Part shown: positions 49,438 through 62,150 of the stretch, piece by piece
How positions within the stretch are numbered: position 1 is the stretch's first letter
Layout of the letters: each line of letters starts with the position of its first letter
Assembly: GCF_036010505.1 (NCBI RefSeq)
Contig: NZ_CP108569.1
Coordinates: 806,001 to 870,000 of the forward strand
Reading direction: 5' to 3'
From: Streptomyces sp. NBC_01197
GTDB taxonomy: Bacteria; Actinomycetota; Actinomycetes; Streptomycetales; Streptomycetaceae
Length of the DNA stretch: 64,000 nt
Notes under the pieces: generated by a model
The model's database searches: none
What the model saw: only the letters and a program-made list of their open reading frames with translations
Told to the model about the DNA's origin: nothing
Made by a program: the position numbers and the translations under genes

Positions 49438-49565
49438 ACGCCCCCCTTCCAGGACCGGCCGTCCGCGTGAGGACGGCAGATTGTCGAAGTCAGGGACGCG
49501 TGATCTTCCCCGGAGGTTGAGTGCCGCTCGGCGGACCGTGGCGGAGCGGGTCTGTCGAGGGGCAT
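49434..49565 (-). CDS. 43-residue micro-gene between hpnD and hpnE (DUF6380-like)
   Basis: Begins MPLDRPAPPRSAERH and ends WKGGV. Its ATG overlaps the hpnD stop (TGATG) and its TGA overlaps the hpnE start (ATGA), so it fills the 127-bp space exactly. The central DHASLTSTICRPH resembles the ASLT-x-T-x-CR motif I recall from the DUF6380 family of small Streptomyces proteins. No membrane helix; arginine/proline rich; one cysteine. Either a real small protein or a coupling peptide that carries ribosomes from hpnD to hpnE. Function unknown. Confidence 0.65.
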   Translation of the reverse strand: MPLDRPAPPRSAERHSTSGEDHASLTSTICRPHADGRSWKGGV

Positions 49566-50515
49566 CAGGCGCGCCTCCGGGCGCTCTGCCGTGTGATGTT
49601 CCGGGTGTCGAGACCGGAGAGACCGCGGACCGCGACGTACGCCTTCTCCCGGCCCGGCAGCGAGACACGGCCGCGCAGGACCGCCTCGGGGTCGCGCTCG
49701 ATGCGGTCAAGGAGGCGCCGGTAGATGCCTGCCATCGCGGCGACGCACGCCCCGCTGCGGCGGTCGAGGAAGGGCAGCAGCCGGTAGCCCTCGGCGAACA
49801 GGGTGCGGGCGCGGCGCACCTCGAAGTGCACAAGACCGGCGAAGTCGGATCCCGCGGGCGGTGTCGCGCTGTGGAAGCCGTCCGAGCAGCCGAACTTGGC
49901 GAGGTCATCGGCGGGCAGATAGGTGCGGCCGTTGCCCGCGTCCTCCCGGACGTCCCGGAGGATGTTGGTGAGCTGGAGCGCGAGGCCGAGCGTGTCGGCG
50001 TACTGGGACGCCCGGTCGGCGGCGGCCGCACTCGCGGCGTTGCCGAAGATTCCGAGCGAGAGCCGGCCGATGGCGCCCGCGACGCAACGGCAGTAGACCT
50101 CCAGGTCGTCCCAGGTCTCATAGGTCTCGCCGCGTACGTCCATCAGTACGCCGTCGATGAGTTCGTCGAGCCCGCCGAGCGGGATCGGGAACCGGCGTGC
50201 CGCGTCGGTCAGCGCCACCGCGACCGGGTCCGTGTCGTCCTCCTCCACGGCTCCTTCGCGGATCCGTCCGAGGAGTTCGCGCGTCGACTCCAGCCGCTCC
50301 CGCTTGACGTCGGGTGCCAGCTCCCCGTCGCCGATGTCGTCCACGCGTCGCGAGAAGGCGTACAGCGCGGACATGGCCTGCCGCTTGTCGGCGGGCAGCA
50401 GCCTGATGCCGTACGCGAAATTACGCGCCTGCTGTCCCGTGACGGCCTCGCAGTACGTGTACGCGGCCACCACGGGCCCCGAAACCGGCGTTTGTCCCTC
50501 CACGGTCCGGCTCAC
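49565..50515 (-). CDS. hpnD: Presqualene diphosphate synthase HpnD
   Basis: 316 residues, trans-isoprenyl diphosphate synthase head-to-head fold. Aspartate motifs D59-D60-I-G-D63 (RRVDDIGD) and DVREDAGNGRTYLP. Condenses two farnesyl diphosphates to presqualene diphosphate. GTG start overlapping the hpnC stop (GTGA). Confidence 0.95.
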   Translation of the reverse strand: MSRTVEGQTPVSGPVVAAYTYCEAVTGQQARNFAYGIRLLPADKRQAMSALYAFSRRVDDIGDGELAPDVKRERLESTRELLGRIREGAVEEDDTDPVAVALTDAARRFPIPLGGLDELIDGVLMDVRGETYETWDDLEVYCRCVAGAIGRLSLGIFGNAASAAAADRASQYADTLGLALQLTNILRDVREDAGNGRTYLPADDLAKFGCSDGFHSATPPAGSDFAGLVHFEVRRARTLFAEGYRLLPFLDRRSGACVAAMAGIYRRLLDRIERDPEAVLRGRVSLPGREKAYVAVRGLSGLDTRNITRQSARRRA

Positions 50516-51441
50516 CCCTCTCTACGCGTTCCTCGCAAGACGGCTCCCGTTTCGCGCAACAGGCCGAACTTGGTGGCTTTCGGCGGTCCGGGAAGCACGT
50601 CGAATCCGGCGGCGGAGACCGCCTGGAGAGCGGCGCTTCCACCTGCCACGAACCCGGCGAGCAGCAGCTTGAGCCTGCCATGGACGCTACCCACCAGCGG
50701 GGCGCCTTCATTCAGCAGACCCCGGGCGCGTTCGGCTTCGTAGGCGATGAGCGCGCGCACCGATGCGCCCGCGCTCGGGACCGCCAGATCCGCCTCCTGG
50801 ACGTGGAACTCCTTCATGTCCTGGGCGGGAAGGTAGATGCGGTCGCGGCCGAGGTCCTCGGCGACGTCCTGGAGGTGCTCGGCGATCTGCAGCGCCGTGC
50901 AGATCGCGTCGGACCGCCGGATGCGTTCGGGGCTCGCCGTGTCCGTGATCTGCAGGACGAGACGGCCGACGGGGTTGGCCGAGAGCTCGCAGTACGCGAC
51001 GAGGTCCTCGTAGGTCTCGTAGCGCCGGACCGTCTGGTCCTGGCGGTTGGCCGCGATCAGCCCGAGGAACGGCTCGGGGGTCAGGGCGCACCGGCGGACG
51101 GTCGGCCGGAGTGTGCGCAGGATGGGGTGGCGCGGCTGCTCGGCCGGTCCGGCGGATCCGCCGAAAACACGGTGGAGGTCGGCCTCGAACGCGTCGAGCA
51201 TCGCGAGGCGGTCGTCGGCGCGCGCGGGGTCGAGCCCCAGCAGCCGGGCCTCGGTCGCGGGGGACGCGAGGTCCCCGTCGCCGATGTCGTCGACGAGCCG
51301 GGCGTAGCCGTAGACCGCCATCAGGTCGTCGCGCCACGCGCGCGGCAGGAAGAACGGCGCGACCGCGAAGTTCTCCCCGGACGCCTTGTCGAGTGTGGTG
51401 CGCGCATGGCTGTCGGTGCCCGCGTCCCGGACGCCCGTCAC
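50512..51441 (-). CDS. hpnC: Hydroxysqualene synthase HpnC
   Basis: 309 residues. KASGENFAVAPFFLPR, DDIGD at 51-55 and QIAEHLQDVAEDLGRDRIYLP identify HpnC, which converts presqualene diphosphate to hydroxysqualene. First enzyme gene of the operon. The GTG at 51441 has no good ribosome site of its own, but overlaps the stop of a 21-codon leader frame (51438-51503), suggesting translational coupling. Confidence 0.93.
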   Translation of the reverse strand: MTGVRDAGTDSHARTTLDKASGENFAVAPFFLPRAWRDDLMAVYGYARLVDDIGDGDLASPATEARLLGLDPARADDRLAMLDAFEADLHRVFGGSAGPAEQPRHPILRTLRPTVRRCALTPEPFLGLIAANRQDQTVRRYETYEDLVAYCELSANPVGRLVLQITDTASPERIRRSDAICTALQIAEHLQDVAEDLGRDRIYLPAQDMKEFHVQEADLAVPSAGASVRALIAYEAERARGLLNEGAPLVGSVHGRLKLLLAGFVAGGSAALQAVSAAGFDVLPGPPKATKFGLLRETGAVLRGTRREG

Positions 51442-51925: not shown

Positions 51926-52711
51926 CTACTTGCCGGTCTCCTTCTCGTACGCCTTGACGACCTCCTCGGTCGGGCCGTCCATCAGCAGTTCGCCCTTCTC
52001 CAGCCACAGGACGCGGTCGCAGGTGTCCCTGATCGACTTGTTGCTGTGGCTGACGAGGAAGACCGTGCCGGCCTCCTTGCGCAGTTCGCGGATGCGCTCT
52101 TCCGAACGGATCTGGAACTTGCGGTCACCGGTGGCCAGCGCCTCGTCGATCATGAGGACGTCGTGGTTCTTGGCGGCCGCGATGGAGAACCGGAGCCTCG
52201 CCGCCATGCCCGACGAGTACGTCCGCATCGGCAGGGTGATGAAGTCGCCCTTCTCGTTGATGCCGGAGAAGTCGACGATCCCCTGGTACCGCTCGCGGAT
52301 CTCCTCGCGCGACATGCCCATGGCCAGACCGCCGAGGATGACGTTGCGCTCGCCGGTCAGGTCGTTCATCAGAGCCGCGTTGACACCCAGCAGCGACGGC
52401 TGGCCGTCGGTGTAGACCTTGCCGCTCTCCGTCGGCAGCAGTCCCGCGATGGCCCGCAGCAGGGTGGACTTGCCGGAGCCGTTGGAGCCGATGAGGCCGA
52501 TGGCCTCGCCGCGGTAGGCCGTGAAGGTCACCCCGCGTACGGCGTGCACCTTGCGGACACCGCGCGCGGCGCTCCTGTCCTTGCCCACGATGCGGCTGAG
52601 CGCGGCGGTGGCCGCGCCCTTGCCGCCGCCGCCGGCGTTGACGCGGTACACGATGTGCACGTTGTCCGCGATGACCGTGGGGATGTACCCCTGATTGGTT
52701 TCCTCAGCCAC
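51926..52711 (-). CDS. Polysaccharide/teichoic-acid-type ABC exporter ATPase (TagH/Wzt-like)
   Basis: 261 residues. Walker A GSNGSGKST, signature YSSGMAARL, Walker B VLMIDEALATGD and H-loop VSHS. The YRVNAG-type N-terminus, the EALATGD sequence and the absence of other domains place it with ATPases that export teichoic acid or O-antigen across the membrane. GTG start, 8-bp overlap with the permease gene. Last gene of the operon, before a strong terminator. Confidence 0.93.
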   Translation of the reverse strand: MAEETNQGYIPTVIADNVHIVYRVNAGGGGKGAATAALSRIVGKDRSAARGVRKVHAVRGVTFTAYRGEAIGLIGSNGSGKSTLLRAIAGLLPTESGKVYTDGQPSLLGVNAALMNDLTGERNVILGGLAMGMSREEIRERYQGIVDFSGINEKGDFITLPMRTYSSGMAARLRFSIAAAKNHDVLMIDEALATGDRKFQIRSEERIRELRKEAGTVFLVSHSNKSIRDTCDRVLWLEKGELLMDGPTEEVVKAYEKETGK

Positions 52712-53633
52712 GGCCGTACCGCTCCTCAGCCTTCCAGAAGAACACGAAGCCCACGACGCCCAGCAGAACCGCCCAGGCCGCTGCCGCCGCCCAGACGTGC
52801 GGAGGCAGGTTCTTGGCGCCGTAACCGTCGATCAGGGCGAACCGGACCAGGTCCATGTAGACGGTGGCCGGATTCCACTGCAGCACATGCGCGATCCACG
52901 GCGGCTTGCCCTTGAGCATGACCGTGATGGAGAACATCACGCCCGACGTGTACATCCAGGTACGCATGATGAACGGCATCAGCTGCGCGAGGTCGGGCGT
53001 CTTGCTGCCGAGCCTGGCCATGATCAGGGCCAGGCCCGTGTTGAACACGAACTGCATCGCGAGGATGGGGATGACCAGGAGCCAGGACAGCGAGGGATAG
53101 CTGTGGAAGCAGACGGCGACCACGATCAGCACGATCATCGAGTAGAGCAGCTGCTGGAGCTGCTGGAGCGCGAACGAGACGGGCAGCGAGGCCCGCGGGA
53201 AGTGCAGCGCCCTCACCAGCCCGAGGTTCCCCGAGATCGCCCGGACACCGGCCATCACCGAGCTCTGCGTGAAGGTGAAGACGAAGACCCCGGTCACCAG
53301 GAACGGGATGAAGACGTCGTGCGGCAGCCCCCGCCTGGTGTTGAGGAGCAGGCCGAAGATGAAGTAGTAAACCGCAGCGTTGAGCAGCGGGGTCGCCACC
53401 TGCCAGACCTGGCCCAGCTTGGCCTGGCTGTACTGGGCCGACAGTTTCGCGGATGAGAAGGCCAGGATGAAGTGGCGCCGTCCCCAGATCTGGCGGACGT
53501 ACTCCATGAGTCCAGGCCGGGCACCGCTCACCGACAGGCCGTACTTCCCGGCCAGCTCGGCCGAGGACAGACCGTCGTCGGGAGACGGGCGGTCGCTCAG
53601 CGCGACTGCTCCGTCATGGGTTGTGTCACTCAC
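52704..53633 (-). CDS. ABC-2-type exporter permease (TagG/Wzm-like)
   Basis: 309 residues, six helices. WGRRHFILAFSSAKLSAQYSQ and the AKLGQVWQVATPLLNAAVYYFIFG segment are typical of TagG/Wzm-type polysaccharide export permeases. With the ATPase it should flip a lipid-linked polymer to the outer face. GTG start, first of the pair; 101 bp separate it from the glycosyltransferase gene. Confidence 0.93.
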   Translation of the reverse strand: MSDTTHDGAVALSDRPSPDDGLSSAELAGKYGLSVSGARPGLMEYVRQIWGRRHFILAFSSAKLSAQYSQAKLGQVWQVATPLLNAAVYYFIFGLLLNTRRGLPHDVFIPFLVTGVFVFTFTQSSVMAGVRAISGNLGLVRALHFPRASLPVSFALQQLQQLLYSMIVLIVVAVCFHSYPSLSWLLVIPILAMQFVFNTGLALIMARLGSKTPDLAQLMPFIMRTWMYTSGVMFSITVMLKGKPPWIAHVLQWNPATVYMDLVRFALIDGYGAKNLPPHVWAAAAAWAVLLGVVGFVFFWKAEERYGRG

Positions 53634-53734
53634 AAGTTGAAACTTTCGTGTTCAAGATGCGCTGCCGGATCGGGACCGGGCTCGGATGCCGGGTCCCGGA
53701 GTACGTCCGATGCTCTCAGAATCAGTCGAGCTTC

Positions 53735-54634
53735 TCAGATCACCGGAGGCCGGCCCAGTCGGGTCAGCCGCCAGACCGTACGCCATTTCATCGGTCGGCG
53801 TGGTCCGCAGGGAGTGGTCCAGCCCTCCTTGAACCCGCCGAACCAGGCCTTGAGCGCGGCTCCGGAGGGGCGGCGGACCAGCGTGAGCAGCATCCACACC
53901 CCCAGGTAGACCGGCACCAGCGGTGCGGGCAGATTCCGGCGGGCCAGCCAGACGCGGTTGCGGGCCACCATGCGGTGGTAGACCGCGTGCCGGGACGGGG
54001 CCGTGGTGGGGTGGTGCAGCACCATGTCGGACCGGTAGTCGATCATCCAGCCGGCGTCGAGGGCCCGCCACGCCAGGTCGGTCTCCTCGTGTGCGTAGAA
54101 GAACTCGCCGGGGAGCGGTCCTGCCTCGGCGATGACCTTGGACCGTACGGCGTTGGCCCCGCCGAGGAAGGTCGTGACCCGCGAGGAGTGCATGGGGTCG
54201 GAGGCTCGCAGCCGGGGGACGTGGCGGCGCGCGGTGACCCCGGTGTCGGGGTCGGCGATCCGGAAGCTGATGATGCCCAGCTCCGGGTCGGCCGCGAAGG
54301 CCTGGCGGCACAGCTCGGCCGTGTCGGTGTTGGGCAGCAGCCCGTCGTCGTCGAGGAAGAGCAGGATGTCCACGTCGGTGCCGGCCGGGCCGAAGGCCTC
54401 GATGCCGACGTTGCGGCCGCCGGGGATGCCCAGGTTCTCGGGCAGCTCGACGGTCCGTACGCCCTCGGGGACGTCCGGCACGGGTGCGCCGTTGCCGACG
54501 ACGACCGTCTGGACCGGGTCGCCGTCCTGCTTGGCCACGGAGTCCAGCAGTGCGCGCAGCTCGTCGGGGCGGTTGCCCATCGTGATGATGACCGCGCCGA
54601 CCTTCGCGGAGCCGCCCGCGCCGGGGGCCGTCAC
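53735..54634 (-). CDS. Glycosyltransferase family 2
   Basis: 299 residues. GT-A fold: VGAVIITMGNRPDELRALL, NLGIPGGRNVGI, DxD-type LFLDDDG and an acceptor-site HEETDLAWR (ED/ExD-like). C-terminal hydrophobic segment (VPVYLGVWMLLTLVRR) for membrane contact. The family uses nucleotide sugars to extend glycans. Start overlaps the CDP-alcohol transferase stop (GTGA), so it is part of the polymer operon. Confidence 0.92.
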   Translation of the reverse strand: MTAPGAGGSAKVGAVIITMGNRPDELRALLDSVAKQDGDPVQTVVVGNGAPVPDVPEGVRTVELPENLGIPGGRNVGIEAFGPAGTDVDILLFLDDDGLLPNTDTAELCRQAFAADPELGIISFRIADPDTGVTARRHVPRLRASDPMHSSRVTTFLGGANAVRSKVIAEAGPLPGEFFYAHEETDLAWRALDAGWMIDYRSDMVLHHPTTAPSRHAVYHRMVARNRVWLARRNLPAPLVPVYLGVWMLLTLVRRPSGAALKAWFGGFKEGWTTPCGPRRPMKWRTVWRLTRLGRPPVI

Positions 54635-55410
54635 TTGAGCCTGCTCGAAGCGAGGATGGACACGAGGTGGAGCAGGCTCTGCAGGAGCGCGATTCCGGCC
54701 AGCACGGCCACGCCGAGCCGGGAGAAGAACAGGTCACCCCTGATCTGGTCGACGATCGCAAGCACCAGGATCAGCAGCGACGCCTCGATCCCGAGGACGA
54801 GCCGGTGGAACTTGAGCGCCCCGGCCGCCCTGCGGGCCAGCGCCATGCCGGAGGAGCGCGGCTCGGAAGCCGTCTCCTTGACCGGCGGCAGCCCCTGCTG
54901 GTGACGGGCGACGCCGACGAGGTCGGTCTCGGACTTGATCATGACGGCGCCGAGGGCGGCGAGGGTGCCGAGGAAGGCCCAGAGCCAGTCGATCCGCCCG
55001 GAGCCCCAGAGGTCCGCCGCGCGCAGACCGAAGCCGACCAGGACCGCGGCGTCGCACACATAGGCGGCGACCCGGTCCACATAGACCCCGACCATCGAGT
55101 ACTGCTTCTTCCAGCGGGCGACCTCGCCGTCGACGCAGTCGATGAGCAGGTAGAGCTGGACCATCACCACGCCGAGCACGGCGCCCCAGACACCCGGCAC
55201 CAGGAGCGCCGGAGCGGCGAGGGCCGCGGCGACGGTCATCACGTAGGTCAGCTGGTTGGGCGTGATCCGCGTGTTCACCAGGTGCCGGTCCACGCGCAGC
55301 GATACCTCGCGCATGTAGAGCCGGCCGCCCCAGTGCTCGCCGCTCCGCCGGTCCTTGACGCCCGGAGGATGAACGACCGGTCGGAGTTCAGCTACCGATG
55401 GCTTTTGCAT
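54631..55410 (-). CDS. CDP-alcohol phosphatidyltransferase-fold protein with altered motif
   Basis: 259 residues, about six helices. The family motif is D91-x2-D94-G95-x2-A98-R99-x8-G108-x3-D112-x3-, but the final position, normally the fourth aspartate thought to be the catalytic base, is alanine (A116). Metal-binding aspartates are kept. It may be a modified or partner subunit rather than a classic transferase. ATG at 55410. It overlaps the preceding dehydrogenase gene by 23 bp. Confidence 0.88.
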   Translation of the reverse strand: MQKPSVAELRPVVHPPGVKDRRSGEHWGGRLYMREVSLRVDRHLVNTRITPNQLTYVMTVAAALAAPALLVPGVWGAVLGVVMVQLYLLIDCVDGEVARWKKQYSMVGVYVDRVAAYVCDAAVLVGFGLRAADLWGSGRIDWLWAFLGTLAALGAVMIKSETDLVGVARHQQGLPPVKETASEPRSSGMALARRAAGALKFHRLVLGIEASLLILVLAIVDQIRGDLFFSRLGVAVLAGIALLQSLLHLVSILASSRLK

Positions 55411-56449
55411 AGTCGGCGTAAGCGTCCTTGATCTGGTCTGCGGACAGGTTGAGGTGTTCCAGGATGGTGAAGCGCCCGGGGCGGGTCTGCGGGGCGTACT
55501 GGACGGCCTGGACGAACTCGTCCACGCTGAAGCCGAGTTCGCCGGGCAGTACCGGCAGGCCGTGCCGGCGCAGGACGTCCGCGAAGAGCGCGGACTCGTC
55601 GGCCGCCCCGCGCAGGTGCATCGCGAAGGCGGCGCCGAGACCGACCTGTTCGCCGTGGCTGCCGGCCCGCCGGGGGAAGAGCAGGTCGAAGGCGTGGCAG
55701 ATCTCGTGGCAGGCGCCGGACGAGGGCCTGGTGTCGCCACTGATCGAGATCGCGATGCCGGAGAGGACGAGCCCCTCGGCGAGCACCATCAGGAACTCGT
55801 CGTCGCCGACCCCGCCGGGGTGGCGCAGGACCGCCTCGCCCGCGGTGCGGGCCATGGCCGCCGCCAGCCCGTCGACCGCTTCGCCGTTCACCTTGTGGGA
55901 CAGCTCCCAGTCGGCGATGGCCGAGATGTTGGAGATGGCGTCGCCGACGCCGGAGCGGATGAAGCGGGGCGGTGCCTCGCGGATCACATCGAGGTCGACG
56001 ACGATCGCGATGGGGGTCGGGACCCCGTACGAGCCGCGTCCGTTGTCGTTGTCGAGGGTCGACACCGGCGAGCAGATGCCGTCGTGCGAGAGGTTCGTCG
56101 CGACGGCGACCATCGGAAGGCCCACCCGGGCCGCCGCGTACTTCGTCACGTCGATGATCTTGCCGCCGCCGAGACCGACCACCGCGTCGTACCGCTTGCC
56201 CTTGATCCCGTCGGCCAGCCGCACTGCGGAGTCGATGGTGCCGTCGGCGACCGAGTACCAGTCGGCGCCGGGCAGTACCGGTGCGAGCCGCTCGCGCAGC
56301 GCCCGGCCCGATCCGTCACTGACGGCGAGGGCGAGCTTGCCCGAGGCCGAGATCCGCTGGTCGGCGAGGAGGCCCGCCAGGTCGTCGAGGGCGCCGCTGC
56401 TGATGTCGACGACGACCGGGGACGGGATGAGCCTCGTCAGTACTGGCAC
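55388..56449 (-). CDS. Glycerol-1-phosphate dehydrogenase-like (iron-containing ADH fold)
   Basis: 353 residues. NAD-binding GLGGGKIIDVTKYAA, VATNLSHDGICSPVS and metal-ligand region with CHEICHAFD and AGSHGEQVGLG. This set matches the sn-glycerol-1-phosphate dehydrogenase branch (EgsA/AraM) rather than glycerol dehydrogenase. Expected reaction: reduction of dihydroxyacetone phosphate to sn-glycerol-1-phosphate, the archaeal enantiomer. Overlaps the nucleotidyltransferase gene by 13 bp, implying that the product is activated with a nucleotide (inferred). Confidence 0.9.
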   Translation of the reverse strand: MPVLTRLIPSPVVVDISSGALDDLAGLLADQRISASGKLALAVSDGSGRALRERLAPVLPGADWYSVADGTIDSAVRLADGIKGKRYDAVVGLGGGKIIDVTKYAAARVGLPMVAVATNLSHDGICSPVSTLDNDNGRGSYGVPTPIAIVVDLDVIREAPPRFIRSGVGDAISNISAIADWELSHKVNGEAVDGLAAAMARTAGEAVLRHPGGVGDDEFLMVLAEGLVLSGIAISISGDTRPSSGACHEICHAFDLLFPRRAGSHGEQVGLGAAFAMHLRGAADESALFADVLRRHGLPVLPGELGFSVDEFVQAVQYAPQTRPGRFTILEHLNLSADQIKDAYADYAKAIGS

Positions 56450-57189
56450 GCGATGCCACGGCCCTTCGCGAGGTCGTCGTGGTTGTCGATCTCGACCCAG
56501 GCGACATCGCCTATCGGGGCCACGTCGATACGGAAGCCGCGGTTCACCAGCTCCTGGTAGCCGTCCTCGTAGTAGAGGTCGGGGTCGCGCTCGAAGGTGA
56601 CCTTGAGCGCGTCCGCGAGCTCTTCGGCGGCCTCGGGCTCGATGAGGGTGACCCCGATGTACTCGCCGGTGGCCGTCGAGGGGTCCATCAGCTTGGTGAT
56701 CCTGGTCACGGCGTCGGTGCCGTCCGTGATGACCTTCATCTCCTCGTCGGCGAGGTGCTTCACCGTGTCGAGGGCGAGGACGATCCGCCGGCCGTCACCG
56801 CGCGCGGCGAGCAGCGTCTTCTCGACGGAGACCGGGTGCACGGTGTCGCCGTTGGCGAGGATCACACCCTGCTTGAGCACTTCGCGGGCGCACCAGAGGG
56901 AGTAGGCGTTGTTCCACTCCTCGGCCTTGTCGTTGTCGATCAGCGTGATCGTGACGCCGTACTTGGCCTCGAACTCCGCACGGCGGGCGTACACCGCTTC
57001 CTTGCGGTAGCCGACGACGACCGCGACCTCGGTGAGTCCGACCTCGGCGAAGTTGCTCAGCGCGATGTCGAGAACGGTGGTCGGCTCGCCCTCCCCCTCG
57101 GGGCCGACGGGCACGAGGGCCTTGGGCAGCGTGTCGGTGTAGGGGCGCAGACGCCTGCCTGCGCCGGCCGCCAGTACGAGGCCGATCAT
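56437..57189 (-). CDS. Sugar/polyol-phosphate nucleotidyltransferase
   Basis: 250 residues. N-terminal nucleotide motif LVLAAGAGRRLRPYTDTLPK, NGDTVH, and EIDNHDDLAKG at the C-terminus, the pattern of phosphocholine or inositol-1-phosphate cytidylyltransferases. Given a polyol-phosphate dehydrogenase downstream and two CDP-alcohol transferases around it, CTP is the likely nucleotide, giving CDP-glycerol or CDP-inositol (inferred). Overlaps the next gene by 4 bp. Confidence 0.9.
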   Translation of the reverse strand: MIGLVLAAGAGRRLRPYTDTLPKALVPVGPEGEGEPTTVLDIALSNFAEVGLTEVAVVVGYRKEAVYARRAEFEAKYGVTITLIDNDKAEEWNNAYSLWCAREVLKQGVILANGDTVHPVSVEKTLLAARGDGRRIVLALDTVKHLADEEMKVITDGTDAVTRITKLMDPSTATGEYIGVTLIEPEAAEELADALKVTFERDPDLYYEDGYQELVNRGFRIDVAPIGDVAWVEIDNHDDLAKGRGIACQY

Positions 57190-58961
57190 GCGGGTTCTCC
57201 TTCGTCATGTACAGCGGGTGCTCCGGAGGACACCCAGAAGCGGATGCTCTCCGCGAGCACCACGATCGCCACGGCCACGGCGAGCACCGTGAGCGCGACG
57301 GCGAAACCGCCACCGGCGGTGTGCCGTGTCGTCAGCACGGCGGCGAGTACGGCGACCACCAGGGTCCGGCCTTCGTGACCGCCGATCGTACGCACGAGCC
57401 ACCGGGGCGGCGCGCCAGTGCCGCCCTTGATGCGGTACACCGTGTCGTAGTGATGGTAGGCGACGGCGCCGACCAGGCCGAAGGCCGCGGGCAGCGCCTC
57501 GTGGACATCGGAGCGGGCCGCCAGCACGAGGATGGTGACGTATTCGGCGGCCCGGAAGACCGGGGGCACCAGCCAGTCGAGGGCGCCCTTGAGCGGTCGC
57601 GAGACGGCCGTTCCGGAGAGTACGCAGTACAGGGCGGCTCCCGCGGCGGGCCACCAGCTGCCGACCGGCGCGAAGAGTGACACGGCCACCACGAGGGCGC
57701 CGCCCACGAACGCGATCACCGGCAGGGCGCCGCGCGGTCCCCTGAGGAACCGTGCGAAGAGCTGGGCGAGCGGGCCGGAGTCAGCGAGATCGGCGAGTGC
57801 CTGGGCGGCGCGGTCGGTACGGGTGGCCCGGCGGGTCAGCGAGCGCAGGATCCGGCCGGCCGTGGTGTAGCAGGCGGCCAGGGCGCAGCCGACGAGCAGC
57901 GCGTAGAAGACGATCCGGGGGGTGGTCACCGCGGTGAGCACAGCGATCATGGCCCAGCGTTCACCGATCGGGAGCACGATCATGCGGCGCACCCAGACCG
58001 TCCAGCCGACGCTGTCGAGCTTGTCGGAGAGGGCGGCGGTGGGACTGGTGTTGCCCGTCGCGTCGTGGTTCGCCTCGTTGAAGGAGAAGTCCACGACGTG
58101 GCGGCAGGTCTGGAGGACCATCGCGCCGAGGGCCAGCACCCAGACGTCGTCGCCGTTGCGGGCCGCGCCCAGCGCGAGCCCCGCGTAGTAGGCGTACTCC
58201 TTGGCCCGGTCGAAGGTCGCGTCCAGCCAGGCGCCGAGCGTCGAGTACTGGAGCGAGTACCGGGCGAGCTGACCGTCCGTGCAGTCCAGCACGAAGGAGC
58301 AGATCAGCAGCACTCCGGCGGCGATGTATCCGCCGCGGGTGCCGGTCGCCGCGCAGGCCGCCGCTATCAGCGCGGTGATCAGCGAGGCGGTGGTGACCTG
58401 GTTCGGGGTCAGCCCGTGGCGGGCGCACCAGCGCGCGATGTACCGCGAGTAGGGGCTGATGCAGTACGTCGTGAAGAAGCCGTCCCGGGACTTCACCGCC
58501 GTACGGAGCCGCACGGCCTCGTCATCGATGGCGGCGACAGCGGCCCTGGCCTCGTGGCGGGACTGCGGGCCCTGCGGGACCGAGGCGATCAAGGTGCCCA
58601 GTTCGGGGCGGTGTACGGGGGTCCCGGCGCCGTCCAGCGCCGCGGCCAGGGCATCGGGACGCGGTTCCGCACCGGCCAGTACGCGGTTGAGCGCGGGGCG
58701 CGCCTCGGGCTGGACGGTGAGCGCACCGGGGACAGCGGCCGCCGCGAAGCGGGGATCGGTCAGCCCGAGGCGGAGCGAGTGGAGGTGGCCGACGAAACGG
58801 GTGTCGACGACCGCCACGCGCTCGTCGGCGGGTGCGGCGGTGAGCAGCTTCGCGGTCTCTGCCGCGTCGGCTGCGACGCGTACATCGAAGCCCAGCGACC
58901 GCAGATCGCCCTCCAGCGACGATCCGGGTACCGGCGCACCGGCGAGGATGGCGGTCGACAG
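57186..58961 (-). CDS. Two-domain CDP-alcohol phosphatidyltransferase (possible CTG start)
   Basis: 591 residues if it begins at the CTG of 58961; 543 if at GTG 58817. The upstream 48 codons are in frame, bounded by a TGA and preceded by AAGGAG 9 nt from the CTG, and their translation (STAILAGAPVPGSSLEGDLR) is protein-like and hydrophobic at the start. The first ~160 residues form a Rossmann-like region, then a complete CDP-alcohol motif D226-x2-D229-G-x2-A-R...G243-x3-D247-x3-D251, then about ten helices. I recall a DUF5941 label for Streptomyces proteins of this shape. First gene of the operon. Confidence 0.85.
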   Translation of the reverse strand: MSTAILAGAPVPGSSLEGDLRSLGFDVRVAADAAETAKLLTAAPADERVAVVDTRFVGHLHSLRLGLTDPRFAAAAVPGALTVQPEARPALNRVLAGAEPRPDALAAALDGAGTPVHRPELGTLIASVPQGPQSRHEARAAVAAIDDEAVRLRTAVKSRDGFFTTYCISPYSRYIARWCARHGLTPNQVTTASLITALIAAACAATGTRGGYIAAGVLLICSFVLDCTDGQLARYSLQYSTLGAWLDATFDRAKEYAYYAGLALGAARNGDDVWVLALGAMVLQTCRHVVDFSFNEANHDATGNTSPTAALSDKLDSVGWTVWVRRMIVLPIGERWAMIAVLTAVTTPRIVFYALLVGCALAACYTTAGRILRSLTRRATRTDRAAQALADLADSGPLAQLFARFLRGPRGALPVIAFVGGALVVAVSLFAPVGSWWPAAGAALYCVLSGTAVSRPLKGALDWLVPPVFRAAEYVTILVLAARSDVHEALPAAFGLVGAVAYHHYDTVYRIKGGTGAPPRWLVRTIGGHEGRTLVVAVLAAVLTTRHTAGGGFAVALTVLAVAVAIVVLAESIRFWVSSGAPAVHDEGEPA

Positions 58962-59224
58962 ACGAACTCACTCCTTGGAGCTGGCGTGACACACGCGGAG
59001 ACGGCCCGCTCCCGGCAGGGACGGGCGGCATGTCGGCAGAGGCTATCGGATGGACTGAAGCAGGAGTTCACGGGCTGTTTACGTCCCGATCCGACCGGGC
59101 ATGACCCCGCGCCACCTGCTGCGGTCATCATGATCGATCCATGCCTCGCCCCACAAACCGTGTCCCCGCTCCGCCCGGAAGCGGCGGGGCCTGGGTGTCT
59201 CAGGGGTGTCTTAGGGTGGCCGGT

Positions 59225-60208
59225 ATGACGTGGCTGATCACAGGCGGGGCGGGGTACATCGGAGCGCATGTGGCGCGGGCGATGGTCGCGGACGGCGAGC
59301 GGGTGGTCGTGCTGGACGACCTGTCGAGCGGGCTCGCCGAGCGCCTTCCGGCCGGAGTCGAGCTGGTGCGCGGCTCGGTGCTCGACCGCGGGCTCCTGGA
59401 CGCCACCCTGGCCGGCCACGACGTCACGGGGGTGGTGCATCTCGCGGGCAAGAAGCAGGTCGGGGAGTCCGTCGAGCACCCGCTGAGCTACTACCGGGAC
59501 AATGTGCACGGCCTGACCGTGGTGCTGGAGGCCGTGGTCGCTGCCGGGGTGCGGCGCTTCCTCTTCTCGTCTTCGGCCGCCGTCTACGGCGTCCCCGATG
59601 TGGAGCTGATCACCGAGTCGACGCCCTGCGCGCCGATCAATCCGTACGGCGAGACGAAGCTGGCCGGCGAGTGGCTGGTACGGGCGGCGGGCAAGGCGCA
59701 CGGGCTGTCCACCGCCTGCCTGCGCTACTTCAACGTGGCGGGTGCGGCCGCGCCCGGGCTGGCCGACATCGGGGTCCACAACGTCATCCCGATGTTCTTC
59801 GACCGGCTGACCCGCGGTGAGGACCCGCGGATCTTCGGCGCCGACTACGCCACACCCGACGGCACCTGTATCCGTGACTACATCCATGTCGCCGATCTCG
59901 CCGACGCCCATGTCGCCGTGGCCCGCAAACTGTCTCCCGACGGCGGTGCGGGGGATCTCACACTCAATGTCGGCCGGGGTACGGGCGTATCGGTACGCGA
60001 ACTGGCCGACCTCGTCGCCTCGGTCACCGGGCTGCCGACGTCCCCCGTGGTCGAGCCGCGCCGCCCGGGCGACGCGGCGAAGGCCGTCGCTTCGGGCGAG
60101 CTGATCGCCAGGGAGCTCGGCTGGAAAGCCTCGCGCGGGGTGCGCGAGATGGTCGGGTCGGCCTGGGATGGCTGGTGTCTGCGACACCCCGGCGCGCGCC
60201 GCAAATGA
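59225..60208 (+). CDS. galE: UDP-glucose 4-epimerase-like (GalE)
   Basis: 327 residues. NAD-binding GGAGYIG at 7-13, catalytic YxxxK at 141-145 (NPYGETK), SSAAVYG serine loop, and RDYIHVADLADAH. Extended SDR, UDP-glucose/UDP-galactose epimerase type; could also act on UDP-GlcNAc. Divergent from the polymer operon across 263 bp, so it may supply the sugar nucleotide for the glycosyltransferase. ATG at 59225. Confidence 0.93.
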   Translation: MTWLITGGAGYIGAHVARAMVADGERVVVLDDLSSGLAERLPAGVELVRGSVLDRGLLDATLAGHDVTGVVHLAGKKQVGESVEHPLSYYRDNVHGLTVVLEAVVAAGVRRFLFSSSAAVYGVPDVELITESTPCAPINPYGETKLAGEWLVRAAGKAHGLSTACLRYFNVAGAAAPGLADIGVHNVIPMFFDRLTRGEDPRIFGADYATPDGTCIRDYIHVADLADAHVAVARKLSPDGGAGDLTLNVGRGTGVSVRELADLVASVTGLPTSPVVEPRRPGDAAKAVASGELIARELGWKASRGVREMVGSAWDGWCLRHPGARRK

Positions 60209-61292: not shown

Positions 61293-61589
61293 GGCTTTCT
61301 TCGTCCTGCTGACCGAACACCCCCTCGGCGGCGGCGTGTTCAGTCCCACCCGGGCGGAAGGCACGTGGACCACCGCGCGTACGGCGACGCATACGGATTG
61401 TGCAGCATATGCGCCGCACCCGAGCCACGGGGCCGGTTTCCCGGCAGCCGCCGAATTCTGATATTCCGGTCGGTGGCTCTGCCACGCAGTGTGGCGGGGG
61501 CACCGACACGTCCCGCGCTCCGAAGTGCGGACAAGCCGCTTTTGTACGGCAGACTGAGGAGCCGGTGACGCCCGATGCGAAGGATGGTT
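61293..61589. other. Intergenic gap before idi
   Basis: 297 bp with no gene or strong hairpin. Lower in GC near 61380-61470. It should contain the idi promoter, but no -35/-10 pair stands out. Confidence 0.4.
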
Positions 61590-62150
61590 ATGTCGAACGG
61601 CGCAGCAGAAGCGATCATGCTCGAACTGGTCGATGAGAGCGGCAGGACCATCGGAACGGCGGAGAAGCTCGCCGCCCACCAGGCACCCGGTCAGCTGCAC
61701 CGGGCCTTCTCGGTGTTCCTCTTCGACGGGGCGGGGCGACTGCTGATCCAGCGTCGGGCACTGGGCAAGTACCACTCCCCAGGCGTGTGGTCCAACACCT
61801 GTTGCGGGCATCCTTATCCCGGCGAATCCCCCTTCGCGGCGGCGGCCCGGCGCACCTATGAGGAGTTGGGTATCTCCCCGGCACTGCTCGCCGAGGCCGG
61901 CACAGTGCGTTACAACCACCCGGACCCCGACTCGGGCCTGGTGGAGCAGGAGTTCAATCACCTGTTCGTCGGACTCGCCCAGGCGGAACTGCGGCCGGAC
62001 CCGGACGAGGTGGACGACACGGCGTTCGTCACCGCCGCCGAACTGGGCGAGCGGCACTCCTCCGCGCCGTTCTCCTCGTGGTTCATGACGGTGCTCGACG
62101 CCGCGCGCCCCGCCGTCAGAGAGCTGACGGGGCCGAACGGGGGCTGGTAA
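61590..62150 (+). CDS. idi: Isopentenyl-diphosphate isomerase, type 1
   Basis: 186 residues. Nudix-type fold: HRAFSVFLFDGAGRLLIQRR, WSNTCCGHPYPGE with catalytic C72 and H74, and RRTYEELGI. Interconverts IPP and DMAPP, feeding the prenyl synthase and hopanoid genes about 10 kb away. ATG 61590 chosen for AAGGA 5 nt upstream; in-frame ATG 61575 is an alternative. Its 3' end overlaps the convergent anti-sigma gene by 35 bp. Confidence 0.96.
   Translation: MSNGAAEAIMLELVDESGRTIGTAEKLAAHQAPGQLHRAFSVFLFDGAGRLLIQRRALGKYHSPGVWSNTCCGHPYPGESPFAAAARRTYEELGISPALLAEAGTVRYNHPDPDSGLVEQEFNHLFVGLAQAELRPDPDEVDDTAFVTAAELGERHSSAPFSSWFMTVLDAARPAVRELTGPNGGW

Follow-up and report, generated by a model that had tools for sequence, protein, structure and literature searches.

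The window analyzed here, a stretch of 64,000 nucleotides from the 7.7-Mb genome of Streptomyces sp. NBC_01197 (G000), contains a block of seven reverse-strand genes, cdpA-ntt-g1p-cdpB-GT2-tagG-tagH, and we give about an even chance to the reading that this cluster is a dedicated cytidine diphosphate (CDP)-glycerol pathway for the cell envelope. According to this proposal, (i) the product of g1p is predicted to reduce dihydroxyacetone phosphate (DHAP) to sn-glycerol-1-phosphate (G1P), (ii) that of ntt is predicted to convert G1P and CTP into CDP-glycerol, the enantiomer opposite to the TagD product, (iii) a CDP-alcohol phosphotransferase, here most likely CdpA with CdpB as its partner or as a weakened second enzyme, would transfer phosphoglycerol onto its acceptor, a lipid or a polyprenyl-linked molecule, (iv) the glycosyltransferase GT2 would add a sugar, and (v) the TagGH-type ABC transporter would export the product, which may be a phosphoglycerol-bearing glycolipid or a short teichoic-acid-like polymer. 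The protein families, their conservation, and their catalytic motifs are established from the sequences, and we infer the reaction products, the acceptor, the role of GT2, the export, and any polymeric nature of the product.

Conservation of the gene cluster

The order and strand of the seven genes were kept in 78 of the 80 Streptomyces loci compared, which are the best 80 of at least 577 that encode a cdpA relative; the two loci without the full set (L016 and L074) end at or near the end of a contig. Furthermore, g1p and the DUF5941 domain were each found in all 41 Streptomyces genomes sampled. Taken together, the universal presence of g1p in these genomes and the conserved order of the seven genes indicate that the gene set is maintained beyond chance. 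Among named proteins, those closest to g1p come from Streptomyces. Other families and classes of actinobacteria carry the core as well, and protein records of relatives outside Streptomyces name the Nitriliruptorales, Egibacteraceae, Euzebyales, and Pseudonocardiaceae as well as in Haloechinothrix, Thermocrispum, Carbonactinosporaceae, and Capillimicrobium. At thresholds that were unequal, a match was found in 33 of the 296 genomes of the phylum sample (1e-25) and in 72 of the 296 genomes of the class sample (1e-40). Outside Streptomyces, 20 phylum loci (from 19 of the 24 genomes with a match) and 20 class loci (20/44 genomes with a match) were fetched. These 40 loci span 9 to 20 kb each and are not independent, since many phylum loci belong to family f9 and 11 class loci to family f84.

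For 18 of the 20 phylum loci and 19 of the 20 class loci of this non-Streptomyces set, ntt and g1p are no more than approximately 3 kb apart. The cdpB gene is present in four phylum loci (L112 to L115) and 14 class loci, and GT2 adjoins it every time (18/18). Among the 24 phylum genomes with a match outside the genus, a CDP-alcohol phosphotransferase gene is found less than 400 bp from g1p in eight and at a distance of 4 to 12 kb in a further eight. Since there are 3 to 8 CDP-alcohol phosphotransferase matches per genome, chance adjacency to g1p is improbable; many of the genomes are related, however, and the cases do not count as independent. An earlier note, written from the letters of this DNA alone, had proposed to look for co-occurrence of the genes across actinobacteria, and they do co-occur well beyond Streptomyces. 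As a separate observation, two distant genomes carry sulfotransferase-like genes close to the core (L112:6267-8531 and L123:7643-8644); that the product at these loci is sulfated would be a guess.

Within the window, the genes overlap by 4 bp (cdpA/ntt), 13 bp (ntt/g1p), 23 bp (g1p/cdpB), 4 bp (cdpB/GT2), and 8 bp (tagG/tagH), and the sole gap is that of 101 bp from GT2 to tagG. These coordinates agree with the overlaps of 4 to 23 bp that the earlier note had described for nearly the whole block, GT2/tagG being the exception. The seven leftward genes and the divergent galE that it had listed are all present at the positions it gave, and the families were named correctly; only the start of cdpA was amended (see below). 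A scan of the locus for sigma-70 promoters identified no promoter-like sites, and two terminator-like sites were found where 1.8 were expected.

Dehydrogenase and cytidylyltransferase

The g1p gene (55388..56449, reverse strand) encodes a protein of the Fe-ADH_2 family that resembles sn-glycerol-1-phosphate dehydrogenases (G1PDHs). Its family profile matched the chains deposited as G1PDH at 1.5e-70 (4rgq), 1e-67 (5fb3), and 4.9e-45 (9h4x); for most glycerol dehydrogenases, the values were between 1e-25 and 1e-29. This places the enzyme near the G1PDHs, in line with the earlier note, but the very best solved row is a chain deposited as a glycerol dehydrogenase (see below). Presumably, Asp170, His248, and His265 are its metal ligands. 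One published alignment (PMC5059525) treats a Streptomyces sequence as a G1PDH; this and the other papers cited by accession number are represented here by the parts of their text that were available.

The best solved relatives of the profile of ntt (56437..57189, reverse strand), which encodes a predicted CTP-type alcohol-phosphate cytidylyltransferase (COG1213/LicC-like), were LicC, the IPCT of Thermotoga maritima (TmIPCT), PntC, and two further IPCT entries, with sugar-1-phosphate enzymes ranking behind. LicC, IPCT, and PntC are CTP enzymes that act on alcohol phosphates or phosphonates. The ranking supports the assignment of ntt as closest to the CTP:alcohol-phosphate cytidylyltransferases and bears out the cytidylyltransferase-like enzyme of the earlier note. 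Residues R13, K23, and D115 were invariant across 22 sequences and aligned, in the profile alignment, with R16, K26, and D112 of TmIPCT, which have been named as catalytic (PMC12275187).

These data also bear on a pathway for a different CDP-alcohol, in which the dehydrogenase would take another phosphorylated ketone, ntt would activate the product, and the phosphotransferases would attach it to an envelope glycan. Several findings are consistent with this alternative. (i) The top solved match of the g1p profile is 3ce9 (1.3e-77), deposited as "glycerol dehydrogenase," and 4rgq and 3ce9 tie when the single window sequence is used as the query. (ii) The score of g1p, 232.9 bits, is under the cut-off of 413 of the NCBIfam G1PDH equivalog NF002022, yet this remains its best NCBIfam match. 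(iii) The substrates of COG1213 enzymes differ widely and include choline phosphate, phosphosugars, phosphoglutamine, and phosphoglycerate; CpgD, a characterized member, gave no product from glycerol-1-phosphate (PMC12275187). (iv) The two-domain matches of CdpA include the inositol-linked IPCT-DIPPS and phosphatidylinositol phosphate (PIP) synthase entries. However, 3ce9 aside, the g1p profile matches the deposited G1PDH chains far more closely than it does the rest of the Fe-ADH chains, and a TagF gene is located beside ntt and g1p in genome G121. We regard a different CDP-alcohol as rather unlikely, albeit with an appreciable probability. Since the substrates of the COG1213 family vary and CpgD refuses G1P, it is the gene context that suggests G1P as the substrate of ntt.

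The position of PntC among the best solved relatives of ntt is in line with a phosphonate head group, which would be made by a phosphonoacetaldehyde reductase, a phosphonate cytidylyltransferase, and a CDP-alcohol phosphotransferase; phosphonate clusters of this composition exist. However, phosphoenolpyruvate mutase exceeded its curated cut-off in 1 of the 41 genomes, compared with g1p in all 41, and six more matches (277 to 306 bits, in five genomes) were all below it. The phosphonate route was rejected on this basis, and we consider it extremely improbable.

CDP-alcohol phosphotransferases, glycosyltransferase, and exporter

The protein encoded by cdpA (57186..58961, reverse strand) is composed of a degenerate NTP-transferase-like domain (approximately residues 1 to 145), a CDP-alcohol phosphotransferase domain, and a C-terminal DUF5941 domain. 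The motif D1xxD2GxxAR..GxxxD3xxxD4 is intact in the window, in 80 of 80 Streptomyces loci, and in all 120 listed relatives; the protein lists hold the best 120 of 2,777, 2,902, and 1,646 matches. The reading frame extends approximately 144 bp upstream past the GTG at 58817, and the start is likely a CTG (58959-58961) preceded by AAGGAG. In the 57 of the 80 Streptomyces loci where this pattern was found, the codon at the equivalent site is CTG in 32 and TTG in 25, and an additional in-frame GTG occurs further upstream in at least two loci (L003 and L005).

Over residues 1 to 375, which comprise the first two domains, the CdpA model matched IPCT-DIPPS and the AF2299 CDP-alcohol phosphotransferase. 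CdpA and IPCT-DIPPS share the same layout, an NTP-transferase-like domain followed by a phosphotransferase, but differ in that the N-terminal domain of CdpA is degenerate and has lost its nucleotide-binding loop, the cytidylyltransferase of the cluster is a separate gene (ntt), and CdpA has gained DUF5941. The GxGxR-type loop is present in 22 of 22 ntt-family sequences and at its place in none of the 120 listed CdpA relatives, six of which had chance matches elsewhere. The shared layout would agree with a soluble compatible solute, similar to di-myo-inositol phosphate or diglycerol phosphate, to which the exporter would be incidental. This idea has hardly any probability in our view, given that 78 of the 80 Streptomyces loci have both the exporter and GT2 in the block, that GT2 accompanies cdpB in every other locus that carries it, and that the fused cytidylyltransferase-like domain is devoid of the loop.

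The CdpA model also aligned with four CEPT1/CHPT1 entries over 304 to 307 residues at 3.2 to 3.6 Å, three of them spanning residues 157 to 582. Modeling thus suggests a cholinephosphotransferase-like fold, although the identity to CdpA is low (10 to 12%). In relatives, DUF5941 is a separate protein at L152 and L166 and fused at L155. No paper on DUF5941 was found in the literature searched, which left most subscription journals outside its coverage. For CEPT1, it was suggested that the extra transmembrane segments TM7 to TM10 are a former catalytic unit that turned into a dimerization domain (PMC10156783).

The second CDP-alcohol phosphotransferase gene, cdpB (54631..55410, reverse strand, with the ATG taken at 55410), encodes a protein of the same fold family that retains D1 to D3 and has Ala in place of D4 in this strain. 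Of the two CDP-alcohol transferases that the earlier note had paired, both are therefore present, but they are not equivalent, since the fourth catalytic Asp is missing from CdpB here. In the 80 Streptomyces loci, the D4 position is Ala in 76 and His in two, is unreadable in one with a truncated gene, and cdpB is missing from one. It is His in all 120 listed CdpB relatives, a set biased by its His-bearing query, and in all 14 class loci with cdpB. In the PIP synthase of Mycobacterium tuberculosis, D4 is the proposed catalytic base, without which the enzyme is inactive (PMC9385802), whereas CEPT1 D158A, which corresponds to D4 by our own reading of the motif, kept approximately 15% of the activity (PMC10156783). 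The entire CdpA motif is lost in 5 of the 11 fetched f84 loci, where CdpB keeps D1 to D3 and His. Since the losses are reciprocal in different genomes, either protein may be the intact member. We interpret CdpA and CdpB as a cooperating pair, possibly a heterodimer, although two enzymes whose roles overlap would also be compatible with the data. Neither the IPCT-DIPPS-like layout of CdpA nor the reciprocal motif loss was found described in the available parts of the literature searched.

The next gene, GT2 (53735..54634, reverse strand), is followed by tagG (52704..53633, reverse strand) and tagH (51926..52711, reverse strand). TagG is an ABC-2 permease, and its closest solved relatives are permease subunits from TagH/TarH complexes (9cfl, 9cfp, and 6jbh); its top rows are the 9cfl and 9cfp permeases, the former solved with a TagH, and TarG. 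TagH is an ABC ATPase with TagH/TarH as its top solved rows, and its score of 171.2 bits, though below the cut-off of 320 of the NCBIfam TagH equivalog, is still its best NCBIfam match.

Further genes border the cluster. The hopanoid genes hpnC and hpnD (49565-51441), which both exceed the NCBI cut-offs, lie downstream, and a NUDIX gene by Pfam assignment (61575-62150), which we take to be isopentenyl-diphosphate isomerase (idi)-like, lies upstream; hpnC, hpnD, and idi were each present in 76 of the 80 Streptomyces loci. The galE gene (59141..60208, forward strand), encoding a UDP-glucose 4-epimerase above its curated cut-off, is divergent from the cluster. It was found in 56 of the 80 loci and was rejected as a core member, being an optional neighbor. 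The adjoining hopanoid genes and the cholinephosphotransferase-like fold of CdpA speak for a phospholipid or glycolipid head group, with phosphoglycerol carried by one lipid, be it diacylglycerol, a glycolipid, or perhaps a hopanoid, and with no polymer; TagGH would then move that lipid or be unrelated. We judge this unlikely. hpnC and hpnD had no match in the 40 loci from outside Streptomyces, so that the hopanoid link is confined to this genus within the sample; in addition, the constant association of GT2 with cdpB and the TagA-type and LytR-CpsA-Psr neighbors in other genomes argue against a mere head group.

Fate of glycerol phosphate and comparison with known systems

In Bacillus subtilis, the ether lipid derived from G1P is made by PcrB. 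There, the ether lipid is the destination of G1P (PMC4244643). The PcrB/GGGPS family PF01884 was absent from all 41 Streptomyces genomes, including this strain, and the control was positive in B. subtilis and archaea. PcrB was accordingly rejected as a sink, and ether lipids are an unlikely fate. More broadly, G1P could enter phospholipid or ether-lipid backbones, either as AraM-PcrB lipids or as heterochiral phospholipids via PlsY and PlsC, both of which accept the two glycerol phosphate enantiomers (PMC13400652). Streptomyces is also listed as a genus with species holding all three archaeal-type lipid genes (Coleman 2019, PMC6431249), and such species may exist outside the 41 genomes. However, besides the missing PF01884, this route leaves the close pairing of g1p with a cytidylyltransferase unexplained, and we consider it very unlikely.

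The TagD equivalog (TIGR01518, cut-off 165 bits) was not exceeded in any of the 41 genomes, and TagD-like matches of at least 58 bits occurred in 14, this strain included. TagF (PF04464) was present in 37 of the 41 genomes, with 36 strong matches. None of these 36 genomes contains a TagD over the cut-off, and 24 are devoid of a TagD-like match of at least 58 bits; the source of their CDP-glycerol is thus unaccounted for in our searches, and the genus-wide cluster is a concrete candidate. The canonical TagD/TagF route was rejected because of the lack of TagD over the cut-off and of TagF in the genome under study, in which the transfer would thus fall to CdpA/CdpB. In the distant genome G121 (L129:6648-10329), genes for a GDPD protein, a TagF-type CDP-glycerol glycerophosphotransferase, ntt, and g1p are found within less than 4 kb. 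The neighbors in other genomes, namely, WecG/TagA, LytR-CpsA-Psr, and TarGH-like exporters, point to cell-wall glycopolymers.

Some side observations concern related genes. A second pair in this genome (L172:8022-9189, G000:C1 at approximately 708 kb) consists of a gene with a sub-cut-off TagD-like match (67 bits) that is convergent with another CDP-alcohol phosphotransferase gene, in surroundings resembling an exopolysaccharide cluster on visual inspection; a further TagD-like match is found at G000:C1, approximately 1186 kb. At L117 and L118 (genomes G211 and G135, family f9), PF01663 phosphodiesterase genes adjoin g1p. At L118, these are followed approximately 7 kb further on by genes for a CDP-alcohol phosphotransferase and a GT2, and L118:10132-11802 shows a sub-threshold match to the sulfatase family, the superfamily of LtaS.

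Besides the equivalog cut-off, the 3ce9 match, and the varied COG1213 substrates discussed above, a number of points weigh against a CDP-glycerol pathway. (i) This strain has no TagF match, so that the link to TagF comes from other genomes, and of the four genomes among the 24 that carry TagF, one has it next to g1p. (ii) Weaker TagD-like matches occur in 27 of the 41 genomes, this strain included. (iii) A PF01066 protein is absent from the g1p contig in 8 of the 24 phylum genomes, some of these contigs being short. (iv) Among solved enzymes, the match of GT2 was weak and partial, and the AlphaFold confidence for the DUF5941 half of CdpA is moderate. (v) No measurement of the function, activity, product, or polymer of the cluster was found in the available parts of the literature searched, most subscription journals being outside its coverage; for SCO6753-6758, which we take to be the Streptomyces coelicolor copy, the single match in this literature was a network-inference paper (PMC4173021).

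The earlier note had called a bacterial surface polymer built on the archaeal enantiomer unusual. This was overstated, as sn-glycerol-1-phosphate is common in lipoteichoic acid, where it originates from phosphatidylglycerol (PMC5974469); the unusual part would be the CDP-activated route from DHAP. A lipoteichoic acid of the polyglycerolphosphate type is present in Streptomyces hygroscopicus; the same study saw no clear LtaS orthologue in the actinobacterial genomes that it covered, and its authors point to TagB/TagF homologues (PMC3196553). In S. coelicolor, deletion of tagO was not achievable (PMC7300013). A broader and tentative reading, to which we assign a modest chance, is that Streptomyces and numerous other Actinomycetota may make envelope glycerol phosphate from the archaeal enantiomer via cytosolic CDP-glycerol, the product of the G1PDH and a LicC-type cytidylyltransferase, with a CdpA/CdpB heterodimer of reciprocal catalytic loss and a pool that also feeds TagF without TagD. 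If true, this would explain where a phylum that has no clear LtaS obtains the glycerol phosphate of its lipoteichoic and wall teichoic acids, and bacterial G1PDH genes, often taken as signs of archaea-like lipids, would serve the cell wall. Ether lipids would then not be the sole destination of bacterial G1P, a point of relevance to the counting of Streptomyces G1PDH genes in work on the "lipid divide" (PMC6431249).

The cluster can be compared with a number of known systems. (i) To our knowledge, no COG1213 member makes CDP-glycerol from G1P, and none was found in the available parts of the literature searched; ntt resembles the family in its best profile matches (LicC, IPCT, and PntC) and in identical catalytic residues. 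(ii) By profile, g1p belongs to the same family as AraM/EgsA and has the RPxSGxxH motif (R241-H248) and H265 in common with the aligned G1PDH chains, but scores under the curated equivalog cut-off. Unlike the AraM-PcrB ether-lipid route of B. subtilis, the sampled Streptomyces genomes contain no PcrB. (iii) The earlier note had presented the system as a candidate new one, but its synteny has been published: in 929 Streptomyces genomes, a CDP-alcohol transferase, GT2, a nucleotidyltransferase, tagG, tagH, and araM were syntenic and were tied to teichoic acid biosynthesis (PMC13118837). Clusters 14531, 14532, and 14538 of that study, with tagG, tagH, araM, and crtB, are evidently this locus. They were named by annotation, and the available text neither proposes a pathway nor analyzes motifs or the occurrence of the locus beyond the genus. 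(iv) In common with the TagD-TagB-TagF-TagGH system, the cluster has a predicted CDP-alcohol intermediate, a membrane transfer, and a TagGH exporter. It differs in that it is predicted to use the opposite enantiomer of glycerol phosphate, in that there is no TagD over the cut-off, and in that a CDP-alcohol phosphotransferase fold replaces TagF.

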